Counted from the stretch's first letter, positions 4,246-61,925 are shown. The stretch: 64,000 nucleotides of DNA from Halorussus halophilus (GCF_008831545.1 NZ_CP044523.1:2356001-2420000); one strand, 5' to 3'. The notes: a model not told the origin generated them from the letters alone. Translations and numbers: made by a program.

Positions 4246-4275
4246 TGCGAGTTCGCGGCGCGCCGCGAACTCGCA
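4246..4275. promoter_or_regulatory. 30-bp perfect palindrome upstream of MFS transporter
   Basis: The 15-bp half TGCGAGTTCGCGGCG is followed at once by its exact reverse complement, with no loop. It ends 13 nt before the ATG at 4289 and lies inside the predicted leader. It could be an operator for a dimeric regulator, or a strong RNA hairpin hiding the start region. There is no sign of a T-run expected of a terminator. Confidence 0.85.
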
Positions 4276-16977: not shown

Positions 16978-17097
16978 TTTTTTCGACTCGGGTGCGCTGG
17001 GGGCCGAAGGCCCCCGCGCACCACTCGTCCAAAAAACGTCGATGAAAAAAGCCACGAGCGAATTCTGCGCGCTCAGCGCGCAGAATTCGCTCGTGTG
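16978..17097 (+). repeat. Dispersed two-hairpin element family II, copy 1
   Basis: Begins with T6 (16978-16983) right after the lipid reductase stop. Hairpin 1 spans 16991-17022 (GGTGCGC and GGGGGCC arms, GAA loop). The A-rich core AAAACGTCGATGAAAA is centred at 17040. Hairpin 2 is a 43-nt perfect inverted repeat, 17053-17095, with 21-bp arms and a single central base. Confidence 0.9.
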
Positions 17098-19616: not shown

Positions 19617-19746
19617 CGAAGACGCGAGAAATCTGGCCGCTCCGCGGTCAGATTTCTCTGCGTCCCTTTTTTTGATCCACATTTTTTGCGCGAGCGGTGC
19701 CGAAGCGCCGTAGGCGCGCTGGCACCCGAGCGTAAAAAAGTGGTTC
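19617..19746 (-). repeat. Dispersed two-hairpin element family II, copy 5
   Basis: On the minus strand it starts next to the PAC2 gene stop (19747) with T6, followed by a GGTGCC/GGCACC hairpin (about 19695-19728), an A-rich core (complement of 19668-19687, AAAAAATGTGGATCAAAAAA) and GAGAAATCTG...CAGATTTCTC (19626-19658). The core differs from other copies at three positions. Confidence 0.85.
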
Positions 19747-42805: not shown

Positions 42806-42912
42806 CGTCGAAGCTTGCTTCGACGGTGGTGAGCAATTCGTAGAATTGCGAACGTCGAAAGACGAACGAAGTGAGTCTTTCGGAAGTAGCGAGACTCCTT
42901 CGGAGTCTCGCT
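42806..42912. repeat. Array of four short palindromes between convergent genes
   Basis: Perfect hairpins at 42806-42825 (9-bp arms, TT loop), 42833-42849 (GCAATTC arms, GTA loop), 42856-42882 (CGAAAGAC arms, 11-nt loop) and 42888-42912 (AGCGAGACTCC arms, TTC loop). The last overlaps the kinase stop codon. The array could terminate transcription from both sides. Confidence 0.9.
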
Positions 42913-45278
42913 CACTCCCGAATCTCGAATCGCGCGCCACCCTTCTCGCTCTCGGTCAGTGCGACCGACCAGCCGTGGGCCTCCGCGATGTCCGAGACGA
43001 TGGCCAGACCGAAGCCGGTGCCGTCCGTGGCGGTGGTGTAGCCGTGGTCGAACACCTGCTCTCGTTCGTCCGGCGCGATGCCCGGTCCGTCGTCGGCGAC
43101 GTAGAAGCCTCCATCGTCGAGGGGGCCGACCGTAACCGTCACGTCGCCACCGCCGCGTTCGAAGGCGTCGTGAGACTCTGTCTCACGGGCTGTCGAACCA
43201 CGTTCGACAACGTTATCAGGCGAAGCCTGATTGCTCGTGGAGCTATGCTCCACGGCGTCGTGAGACTCGGTCTCACTGCCTGTCGAACCGTGTTCGACGC
43301 TGTTCCGAAACAGGTTCTCCAGCAACTGACGCAACCGACCCGGAGCCGCTTCGATACTCGTCTCGCCGTCGATTCGGAGCGTGGCGTCTGCCGTGTCTAC
43401 GGTGGCCCACGCGTCGGTAGCAATCGTCCGGAGTTCGAGCGGTTCGGTCTCCGTGACGGTGTCGCCCTGCCGCGTGAGGGTCAACACGTCCGCGACCAAC
43501 GCGTCCATCCGGTCGAGCGCGCGTTCGAGCGGTTCGACGTGAGGGTTGTCGTCTACGTCTTCGGCTAGCATCTCGAAGCGACCCTGTGCGACGTTCAGCG
43601 GATTGCGCAGGTCGTGTGAAATGACGCTCGCGAACTCGTCCAAGCGGTCGTTCTGGCGGGCGAGTTCGCGCTCGCGCTCTTTCTGGTCGGTGATGTCCGT
43701 ATAGACGCTGACGATTTCGGTGTCACCGTCCACCTCGATGGCGTCGGTGTGGAACAGGAAGTCCCGAACGTCGCCGTCGGTGCCGCGGCGGAGTTCGATG
43801 CCATCGACGCACTCGCCCTCGCGGACGCGCTCGTTGATGTCGTCTGCCTCCCGTTCTCTCTCCGGCGGGACGATAATGTCGTCCAGCGGTTCGCCGACGA
43901 GTTCGCTCGCGTCACGGCCGAACGTCTCCTCGAAGGCGGGGTTGGCCGCGCGAATGCGTGGCTCTTGAGTGTCGTCGTAGACGCAACTGACGACGGCGTT
44001 GGGCACGTTCTCGAACAGCGCGGCGAACCGGTCGCGCTCGGCCCGCAGTTCGCGCTCCGAGTCGATGCGCCGCAGTGCTTCCGTGAGGTGGGCCACGAGG
44101 AGTTCCGTCAGTTCGCGGTCCTCGTAGTCGAAACCATTCGGTTCCTCCGAAACCGCTTGGAAGACGCCGAACTCGCCGAGCGGGACCGTCAGTGCCGACC
44201 GGTACTGGCTCTCCGCGGCGTCGTGGTCTCCGTCGTCCACGTCGTGGACGAGGTTCGACTCGCCGCTGTGGAACACTGCTGCGACGATATTGTCGTCAGC
44301 GTCGAGAGTCGTCGTCTCGTAGTAGCCGTCGGTCGGAACGCCTTTCGAGACGGCCTTAGGGACGAGTTCGTCACCTTCGGCGGCATCGACCATGCAGAGG
44401 TCGAACGCCAAGATGTCCTCTGCCGCAGCGACTGCGAGGTCGTAAATCTCTTGCTCGGTCGTACACGACACCGCTCGCGCAGCGACGTCGTACAGCGACT
44501 CGATTTTTCCTTTGGTCTCCCGAAGTTCCGATTCCATCTGCTTGCGCTCGCTCACGTCGCGGCCGTAGACCGAGATGCCGTCTTCGGCGGGATAGGCCCT
44601 CGCTTCGACCCACCGCTCGGAATCGACCACGAGCGTCGATTCGACGGTCGTCGCCACCTGCTCTTCGAAGGCCCTCTCGTAGGCTTCGTGGAATTTCCCT
44701 TCATTGCCGTCTGGGAACGTCTCGCGGATGTCCGACCCGAGTAGCTCCTCGCGTGTTTGTCCGAACAACTCGGCGGCGCGCTCGTTGACGTACCGGAACC
44801 GCCAGTCGTCGTCCAGAGCGAAGAAGGCGTCCGTGACACGCTCGAAGAGACGACGCGTCTGCTCGCTCGCTTCGGCGGCCTCAATTTCGGCGCGGTGCTG
44901 GGCGACGGCGTTCTCGACGCGGTTGGCCAGCATCTCGTACTGCTCGGTGCCGGTGCTCTTCTGGAGGTAGTCGGTGACGCCGGCCGAGATGGCTTCGCTC
45001 GCTATCTCCTCGCTTCCTTTGCCGGTGAACAGGACGAACGGCAGGTCGGGGTCTAACTCCCGAACCTGTTCGAAAAACGCTAATCCGTTCATCTCGGGCA
45101 TGTCGTAGTCGCTGACGACGCAATCGACGCGCTCGTTGGCTAGCCGGTCCAGAGCCGTCGTGGGGTTCGTCTCGATAGTCGGCTCTAAGTTTTCGCCAAC
45201 CCGCCGTAGATACGTCGCCGTGAGGTCCGCGACTGCCTCGTCGTCGTCGACTAATAGCACGCGAATGCGGTCGCCCAT
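42912..45278 (-). CDS. Hybrid receiver-PAS-GAF-PAS sensor histidine kinase
   Basis: A 788-residue cytosolic kinase. In order: receiver domain (about 1-120; phospho-acceptor Asp57 in VSDYDMPEMNG), PAS (about 140-255), GAF (about 275-420; LCMVDAAEGDELVPKAV), PAS (about 430-545), HisKA with His near 555 (FASVISHDLRNPLNVAQGR), and HATPase with NLFRNSVEHG (N box), YVADDGPGI (G1) and GTGFGLAIV. The linker between N and G1 boxes is expanded by repeats (VEHGST, ETESHDA) and is encoded by an array of palindromes. Start MGDRIRVLLVDDD at 45278. The signal sensed is unknown. Confidence 0.92.
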   Translation of the reverse strand: MGDRIRVLLVDDDEAVADLTATYLRRVGENLEPTIETNPTTALDRLANERVDCVVSDYDMPEMNGLAFFEQVRELDPDLPFVLFTGKGSEEIASEAISAGVTDYLQKSTGTEQYEMLANRVENAVAQHRAEIEAAEASEQTRRLFERVTDAFFALDDDWRFRYVNERAAELFGQTREELLGSDIRETFPDGNEGKFHEAYERAFEEQVATTVESTLVVDSERWVEARAYPAEDGISVYGRDVSERKQMESELRETKGKIESLYDVAARAVSCTTEQEIYDLAVAAAEDILAFDLCMVDAAEGDELVPKAVSKGVPTDGYYETTTLDADDNIVAAVFHSGESNLVHDVDDGDHDAAESQYRSALTVPLGEFGVFQAVSEEPNGFDYEDRELTELLVAHLTEALRRIDSERELRAERDRFAALFENVPNAVVSCVYDDTQEPRIRAANPAFEETFGRDASELVGEPLDDIIVPPEREREADDINERVREGECVDGIELRRGTDGDVRDFLFHTDAIEVDGDTEIVSVYTDITDQKERERELARQNDRLDEFASVISHDLRNPLNVAQGRFEMLAEDVDDNPHVEPLERALDRMDALVADVLTLTRQGDTVTETEPLELRTIATDAWATVDTADATLRIDGETSIEAAPGRLRQLLENLFRNSVEHGSTGSETESHDAVEHSSTSNQASPDNVVERGSTARETESHDAFERGGGDVTVTVGPLDDGGFYVADDGPGIAPDEREQVFDHGYTTATDGTGFGLAIVSDIAEAHGWSVALTESEKGGARFEIRE
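43169..43298. repeat. In-frame array of six 3-nt-loop palindromes inside the kinase gene
   Basis: Perfect inverted repeats with exactly three unpaired bases: 43169-43187 (loop TCT), 43191-43209 (CAC), 43215-43231 (GAA), 43236-43254 (TAT), 43260-43276 (TCG), 43282-43298 (CGT). Arms are 7-8 bp. Starts are 21-24 bp apart. The array stays in frame and encodes the linker repeat of the ATPase domain. Confidence 0.9.
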
Positions 45279-48025: not shown

Positions 48026-48144
48026 GAGAAATCTGTGCGCGGCGCGCACAGATTTCTCTGAGTGACTTTTTCATCGACGTTTTTCAAGGAGTGGTGCGCG
48101 AGGGCCTTCGGCCCTCAGCGCACCCGACGCAGAAAAAGGTCGCG
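48026..48144 (-). repeat. Dispersed two-hairpin element family II, copy 2
   Basis: On the minus strand it begins right after the stop of the 48145 gene: T5, hairpin 1 (48093-48124, GGTGCGC/GAGGGCC arms), core AAAAACGTCGATGAAAAA (complement of 48067-48084) and hairpin 2 (48026-48058, 15-bp perfect arms GAGAAATCTGTGCGC). Hairpin 1 differs from copy 1 by two paired bases that keep pairing. Confidence 0.9.
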
Positions 48145-61509: not shown

Positions 61510-61623
61510 TTTTTTCGAATCGGGTGGCAACGGCGCGTTCCGCGCCCCTTGCCACCACTCCGAGAAAAGTCTGGACCAAAAACCGACGTCGAGAAATCTG
61601 GCCGCGAGACGGCCAGATTTCTC
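61510..61623 (+). repeat. Dispersed two-hairpin element family II, copy 3
   Basis: T6 at 61510-61515, hairpin 1 at 61523-61556 (GGTGGCAA / TTGCCACC arms), a degenerate A-rich core GAAAAGTCTGGACCAAAAAC, and hairpin 2 at 61591-61623 (14-bp perfect arms GAGAAATCTGGCCG, 5-nt loop). Unlike the other four it lies upstream of a gene (the acyl-CoA synthetase) and points away from it. Confidence 0.85.
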
Positions 61624-61738
61624 GCGTCTACTTCGTGCGGGTACGACTTCCGCACCGCCACCGCATCCGCATGAGCCACACGCCTCCCCAACCGATTCCT
61701 TCATTCGCTCGCTGTCGCTCGCTCCTTCAGTCATCCAC

Positions 61739-61925
61739 CGGCAGACGAACCGCGTCTGCCGAGTTGCTCGAAAACCGAAGGTTTTCGGCATTGCAGGACC
61801 GGAGGTCCTGCAAGCTGTCAGACGTAGTCTGACAACATCACGAAAGGGCTTCGCCCTTTCGAACGACTTCGGTCACTGCGTTCACGAAGACCTCGCGCGA
61901 CGTGACGAGACACAAGGTCTCGTCA
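61739..61925. repeat. Array of six short palindromes
   Basis: Perfect hairpins at 61739-61761 (9-bp arms CGGCAGACG), 61769-61787 (CGAAAACC arms, GAA loop), 61792-61812 (TGCAGGACC, GGA loop), 61816-61834 (TGTCAGAC, GTA loop), 61841-61861 (CGAAAGGGC, TTC loop) and 61903-61925 (TGACGAGAC, 5-nt loop). From the second to the fifth the starts are 23-25 bp apart. With the family II copy it fills the 511-bp gap 61462-61972. Confidence 0.9.

Follow-up and report, generated by a model that had tools for sequence, protein, structure and literature searches.

We analyzed a 64,000-nucleotide stretch of the Halorussus halophilus chromosome (NZ_CP044523.1:2356001-2420000; hereafter, the window), which contains on its minus strand a hybrid histidine kinase gene (42912..45278; likely ATG start at 45278, in a reading frame that is open to 45536). 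The encoded protein combines a response regulator (receiver) domain with PAS, GAF, PAS, HisKA, and HATPase_c domains. Directly past the N-box (NLFRNSVEHG) lies an array of three in-frame units of 15 amino acids (45 nt), each containing two hairpins, one on VEHGST and the other on the spacer. Unit 1 (VEHGSTGSETESHDA, 43254..43298, minus strand, as are the other two) includes hairpins at 43282-43298 (GTCGAAC-CGT-GTTCGAC) and 43260-43276 (GTGAGAC-TCG-GTCTCAC); unit 2 (VEHSSTSNQASPDNV, 43209..43253), at 43236-43254 (CGTGGAGC-TAT-GCTCCACG) and 43215-43231 (ATCAGGC-GAA-GCCTGAT); and unit 3 (VERGSTARETESHDA, 43164..43208), at 43191-43209 (TGTCGAAC-CAC-GTTCGACA) and 43169-43187 (CGTGAGAC-TCT-GTCTCACG). 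All six hairpins are perfect and have 3-nt loops (TCT, CAC, GAA, TAT, TCG, and CGT), and their starts follow one another at steps of 22, 24, 21, 24, and 22 bp. Units 1 and 3 share 89% identity, which marks the kinase array as the product of tandem duplication and contradicts the first-pass annotation, according to which the arrays were not simply duplicated in tandem. The unusual feature of this array is that diverged units remain palindromic: the arms of the unit 2 spacer (coding strand ATCAGGC-TTC-GCCTGAT) differ from those of the spacers in units 1 and 3 (GTGAGAC-..-GTCTCAC), with no mismatch in any of them.

The window also contains two intergenic arrays, neither of which is assigned to a strand. 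Array 1 (42806-42912), flanked by an aldo/keto reductase gene and the histidine kinase gene, consists of CGTCGAAGC-TT-GCTTCGACG (42806..42825), GCAATTC-GTA-GAATTGC (42833..42849; a GNA loop with a C-G closing pair), CGAAAGAC-GAACGAAGTGA-GTCTTTCG (42856..42882; an 11-nt loop), and AGCGAGACTCC-TTC-GGAGTCTCGCT (42888..42912), the last of which touches the kinase ORF at its stop-codon end. The loops in this array are 2, 3, 11, and 3 nt long, and the start steps are 27, 23, and 32. Array 2 (61739-61925), with an acetyl-CoA synthetase-like gene nearby, begins with a member of the dispersed GAC-AAACCGC-GTC hairpin family, which has variable arms (61739..61761), and continues with CGAAAACC-GAA-GGTTTTCG (61769..61787), TTGCAGGACC-GGA-GGTCCTGCAA (61791..61813), TGTCAGAC-GTA-GTCTGACA (61816..61834), CGAAAGGGC-TTC-GCCCTTTCG (61841..61861), and TGACGAGAC-ACAAG-GTCTCGTCA (61903..61925); its loops are 5, 3, 3, 3, 3, and 5 nt long, and its start steps are mostly 22-30. 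All the hairpins named in the first-pass annotation were found in the window. The single design and the 21-25 bp start spacing that it ascribed to all three arrays hold for the kinase (3-nt loops throughout, steps of 21-24), but the intergenic arrays are less uniform, with loops of 2-11 nt and wider steps (23-32 in array 1). The arms of successive hairpins in the window differ, unlike CRISPR arrays with their near-identical repeats and unique spacers.

These hairpins are genuine and far above chance. In the window, we identified 23 hairpins with 3-nt loops and arms of at least 7 bp, vs 6.4 in dinucleotide shuffles, a comparison that the first-pass annotation had proposed for the full genome. 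The genome-scale count covered 1.2 Mb of the same chromosome, out of a genome of about 4.45 Mb, and genes were called by ourselves with a simple codon-usage model, yielding 179 kb of intergenic and 1.02 Mb of coding DNA. In the intergenic portion, there were 51 loop-3 hairpins with arms of at least 8 bp, vs 2.6 in shuffles, and 36 with arms of at least 9 bp, vs 0.4; loops of 1, 2, 5, and 6 nt were enriched as well. The corresponding coding counts were 43 vs 28 and 11 vs 5.5, relative to shuffles that do not preserve codons. Given the strong intergenic and modest coding excess, the phenomenon is intergenic, and the kinase is a coding exception. Among ten more haloarchaeal genomes, for each of which 60-80 kb were covered, the loop-3 excess was present in about half and sparser than in this genome. 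The intergenic excess in other haloarchaea is partial and usually of lower density.

Several other palindromes were noticed along the way. Two in the window are long and perfect, one with 21-bp arms and a 1-nt loop (17053-17095) and the other with 15-bp arms and no loop (4246-4275). A dispersed palindrome, GAGAAATCTG-N-CAGATTTCTC, with a variable, GC-rich center that is itself mostly palindromic, occurs at window positions 19626-19658, 48026-48058, and 61590-61624, and at C1:2211950. The CCTCCCCAACCGA motif and its flanks (window 61685-61730) have about 26-29 intergenic occurrences in the 1.2 Mb examined.

Related arrays were found in kinases of many haloarchaeal genera. In a phylum-wide search, 41 of the 58 haloarchaeal sites were perfect palindromes by our own count, whereas outside the order, there were 8 matches among 124 genomes, none of them a perfect palindrome. 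As in protein-coding minisatellites, the units are arranged in frame and in tandem, at 45-, 48-, or 51-nt spacing, and their number ranges from 0 to 5 among orthologues. In one locus (L238, 1455-1539), the VEHGST-like position is occupied by VKRSFT (GTGAAGC-GAA-GCTTCAC), with paired amino-acid-changing substitutions and a GNA loop.

In the sequence encoding VEHGST (GTN GAR CAY GGN TCN AC), the amino acids themselves make the first two positions of the codons complementary, whereas the third positions are free and pair with other third positions, which provides for a clean test of nucleic-acid constraint. We listed 150 VEHGST sites from 195 haloarchaeal genomes, 117 of which contained a match. 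The third positions of Val and Ser were Watson-Crick paired in 84% of these sites (46% expected) and those of Glu and Gly in 78% (45% expected); the mutual information was 0.60 bits for Val3-Ser3 and 0.41 bits for Glu3-Gly3, compared to 0.01-0.10 for the non-pairing combinations. The two pairs vary independently of one another and thus do not reflect two inherited haplotypes. Where VEHG was followed by TCNAC, Glu3 and Gly3 were paired in 87% of the cases vs 46% expected (n = 38); where no TCN codon followed, the values were 33% and 31% (n = 98), that is, there was no covariation. Gene conversion among kinase paralogues lowers the independence of all these sites.

The spacers point in the same direction. 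They come in two designs, one with a 7-bp stem and a 3-nt loop in 45-nt units and the other with a 6-bp stem and a mostly conserved 10-nt loop (TCGCARRCTC) in 48-nt units. Perfect stems of at least 6 bp were present in 56 of the 94 units, all units being counted, vs 4.5 after base shuffling and 6.1 after synonymous resampling. The spacer peptides are unrelated (RPKAD, NQASPD, ETESHD, and PRSQAHED), yet palindromic at the DNA level. When 30 and 41 distinct units were aligned without gaps, 94.1% and 96.3% of the cells were paired, the latter value being slightly flattering because the 41 units were picked from 49, with a few out-of-register ones dropped. Two-sided changes numbered 69 and 92 in these alignments, vs 26 and 29 in shuffled ones (none of the 500 shuffles reached the observed values; sites and units are related by descent, so that shuffle frequencies are not probabilities, and p-values overstate independence), and in both, the pairing signal collapsed when the partners were slid. 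Both the VEHG-without-ST control and synonymous resampling ruled out codon usage and amino-acid constraint as explanations. It is therefore strongly supported that the palindrome is kept at the nucleic-acid level, independent of the amino acids. The claim of the first-pass annotation that palindromicity is preserved while the arm sequence changes is borne out by the synonymous covariation together with its control and by the orthologous arrays, and the alignments of units, akin to the between-strain alignment that it had suggested, did reveal arms changing in pairs.

Comparison of orthologues showed that tandem units have been gained and lost. In one genus (g51), the flanks of the same kinase are near-identical among the 14 species that were readable, and its arrays range from 0 to 5 units, the array-free forms being NAVEHAGSDVHV and NALDHGGRDVQV. 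The Haloferax gibbonsii gene is also array free (NSVEHAGDGV), whereas those of H. lucentense and H. alexandrinus contain two additional units, 90 nt in total, with four perfect hairpins; the arrays of the latter two species are identical and, hence, uninformative on arm change. The change itself is apparent in duplicated spacers of genome G284, ACCAGAC-TAC-GTCTGGT and ACCGGAC-TGT-GTCCGGT, which differ by a paired A-T to G-C substitution. A single array of genome G088 contains two cases of loop inversion with unchanged arms, namely, GTCGAGC-ATG-GCTCGAC beside GTCGAGC-CAT-GCTCGAC, which turns VEHGST into VEPCST in the protein, and GGGATCC-GGT-GGATCCC beside GGGATCC-ACC-GGATCCC. Across all kinase hairpins, loop inversions are not significantly enriched (3 vs 1.8 by permutation, p = 0.24). 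Of 50 cases of neighboring VEHGST hairpins, 26 show differences at both variable pairs, vs 15 expected (p = 0.0004), as if identical neighbors were lost or avoided. In the fixed N-box arm, GTG is more common in palindromic kinases (23 of 38) than in the others (23 of 98), which indicates that any arm copying does not simply proceed outward from the N-box.

The loops are informative as to which nucleic acid is folded. The closing pair is 5'C..G3' in 46 of the 51 intergenic loop-3 hairpins, and 28 of the 51 have GNA or TNC loops, compared to the expected 17%. GNA triloops with G-C pairs form exceptionally stable DNA mini-hairpins (PMC4686876); the nearest-neighbor DNA energies in the parameter set we used make no distinction among triloop sequences, so the claim of GNA stability rests on the literature. 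On the coding strand, 16 of the 51 spacer hairpins have GNA loops and 15 have TNC loops, and the intergenic GNA loops are divided between 9 in sense and 11 in antisense orientation. Mismatches in the arms include 15 G.T and 25 A.C combinations. With a transcript, only one strand should be represented, and selection on RNA should tolerate G.U, so both patterns speak against RNA; with GNA and TNC equally frequent and G.T no more common than A.C, the fold that matters appears to be that of DNA rather than that of mRNA.

We propose a scenario to which we assign an even chance, namely, that the units spread by repeat recombination and that short template switching, occurring at stable DNA mini-hairpins, restores the match between their arms. 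The repeat units would be short DNA hairpins, with 6-11 bp arms and loops that are either 3 nt long or longer and conserved, and these would be tolerated in intergenic DNA and in a variable loop of histidine kinases just past the N-box. Such units could multiply and spread through ordinary repeat recombination or gene conversion, as supported by the 45/48/51-nt tandem units, the array-free orthologues, and the dispersed copies. A DNA-level process would then copy one arm onto the other, and it is because of this copying that, under the proposal, the arms remain exact reverse complements. The most likely process of this kind would be short-range polymerase template switching (quasipalindrome correction), probably seeded by very stable C-GNA-G mini-hairpins that form in single-stranded DNA during replication or repair. 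Neighbors with identical arms would be lost by recombination, such that the survivors differ. The first-pass annotation had suggested a process that creates or preserves foldback structures; the symmetry of the loops, the pairing that is limited to Watson-Crick combinations, and the two inverted loops in one array are compatible with such a process, whereas the involvement of template switching in creating and repairing the arms is what we infer from these patterns. Because coding DNA outside the repeats has a modest hairpin excess, general template switching would have to be filtered by selection or to require local seeds.

In yeast coding genes, template switching homogenizes arms and inverts spacers (PMC8604942), and RNA stems have been proposed to arise and persist through it (PMC8794818). 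The haloarchaeal hairpins resemble these systems in that the arms are exact reverse complements, changing in pairs that include multi-base changes, and occur in coding DNA, and differ from them in forming tandem arrays with a preferred triloop in many genera, as known from sequence comparison. Spacer inversion, typical of template switching, is represented by the two inverted loops in one array, but its frequency over the whole set does not exceed the permutation expectation.

The main rival to template switching is selection for DNA structure, whereby a hairpin or cruciform would act at these sites, for example, by being bound or cleaved by a structure-specific protein. Pairing that is kept across haloarchaeal families despite sequence change, the prevalence of the C-G closing pair and of GNA/TNC loops among the intergenic triloops, and the regular spacing of the kinase units are all compatible with this possibility. 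We nevertheless consider it rather unlikely, given that close species carry orthologues of this kinase that lack the array and that the number of units and the sequence of the arms vary greatly, with no single protein-recognition sequence in common.

It is less plausible that a dispersed palindromic element, similar to REP, MITE, or Rickettsia palindromic elements, inserts ready-made hairpins into intergenic regions and, in frame, into kinases. The pieces of the intergenic arrays in the window are, in part, members of dispersed repeat families. A homologue of array 2 lies at C1:2209801, and there are many partial copies; the GAC-AAACCGC-GTC family, with a conserved loop and flanks, is represented by nine perfect intergenic copies with 8-bp arms; a 10-nt loop is conserved in units of the 48-nt type; and the contrast between the array-free H. 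gibbonsii gene and its counterparts that are 90 nt longer could reflect insertion. However, such an element would carry its own sequence, whereas the arms here differ in matched pairs. The nine GAC-AAACCGC-GTC copies include four arm sets, and comparison of array 2 with C1:2209801 reveals paired changes in hairpin 2 (CGAAAACC-GAA-GGTTTTCG vs CGAAAATC-GGA-GATTTTCG) and hairpin 5 (CGAAAGGGC-TTC-GCCCTTTCG vs CGAAAGAGC-TTC-GCTCTTTCG). Furthermore, the kinase inserts are tandem extensions of the N-box codons themselves. Thus, a dispersed element accounts for the spread of the hairpins but not for the matched arms. Rickettsia palindromic elements are mobile-like elements of about 100-150 nt with a family sequence that are found in frame in protein genes; the haloarchaeal palindromes share this in-frame location within protein genes but are short and tandem, with variable arms. 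REP/BIME elements are likewise short extragenic palindromes that are clustered and dispersed in the genome (PMC12306157, PMC3733652), but their sequence is conserved, whereas the haloarchaeal arms vary among copies in matched pairs, with only some loops and flanks conserved, and the units are located not only between genes but also within the kinase genes.

A role of the hairpins in mRNA, be it in termination, stability, or translational pausing, is improbable. The stems are strong, and the regions between convergent genes are somewhat enriched in intergenic hairpins, with 24% of the hairpins on 14% of the bases, but the loops show no sense preference, and there is no extra tolerance of G.T (G.U in RNA). 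The Rfam search produced no gathering match in the window and no credible match in the kinase loci. Bacterial-type (intrinsic) terminators were rejected as well, given that T runs of at least 4 are located near 15 of the 181 hairpins vs about 11 expected, with no clear T-tract excess. An ordinary low-complexity protein repeat with codon bias and without nucleic-acid constraint would fit the tandem duplication of the units and the amino-acid-dictated complementarity of the first two VEHGST codon positions but is highly improbable because covariation is confined to those third positions that pair and to the palindromic context, the spacer stems are not recovered by synonymous resampling, and intergenic DNA shows the same triloop design.

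A second protein family with coding hairpins is the haloarchaeal RNase P protein component 1 (PF01868). In its gene (L374, G000:C1:876378-876716; also L348, L359, L358, L364, and L347), there are stretches that are letter-identical across families, such as CAGATGAA and GTTACGGTGGAT, with near-invariant third positions (GAT 8/8, GAA 8/8, and GTT 8/8), whereas the first half of the gene averages 0.75. These stretches, which have no Rfam match, resemble an RNA element or a regulatory element within the coding sequence. In several Halorussus species (L369, L354, L357, L366, and L373), the linker of this gene contains extra in-frame hairpins with variable arms. The linker hairpin segment looks like an embedded element at the nucleotide level and may be unrelated to the kinase arrays.

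Archaeal REP sequences have been described previously (PMC12306157), and inverted repeats have been surveyed across the tree of life (PMC13155455). Perfect inverted repeats in protein-coding DNA are also known from the mitochondria of Nematomorpha (PMC6649704), but those palindromes are long (up to 284 bp) and located in conserved parts of proteins, whereas the haloarchaeal ones are 17-23 nt long, tandem, confined to a variable linker, and found in cellular archaea. Mini-hairpins of the d(GCGAAGC) type (PMC4686876) are known as a physical-chemistry and aptamer motif; their C-GNA-G triloop, read on either strand, characterizes over half of the intergenic loop-3 hairpins described here. The literature searched, in which few subscription papers were covered, contained no report of genomic arrays of such mini-hairpins and no prior report of the haloarchaeal hairpin arrays.

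When synonymous sites change in pairs, a functional RNA structure is usually considered proven; in the many haloarchaeal genera described here, such changes are found in protein-coding DNA that shows no sign of selection on RNA. The haloarchaeal arrays thus constitute a natural, countable system in which to ask if hairpins arise and persist through template switching, as has been asked for RNA genes (PMC8794818), in a group that includes the genetic model Haloferax volcanii. More tentatively, and with considerable doubt, haloarchaea might possess a DNA-level process, either dedicated or unusually active, by which short hairpins with C-GNA-G loops are written and maintained in both coding and non-coding DNA, in which case the protein sequence of the linker would be set by DNA folding rather than by protein selection. 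The hairpin arrays explain the otherwise puzzling VEHGST-type repeats of haloarchaeal sensor kinases.
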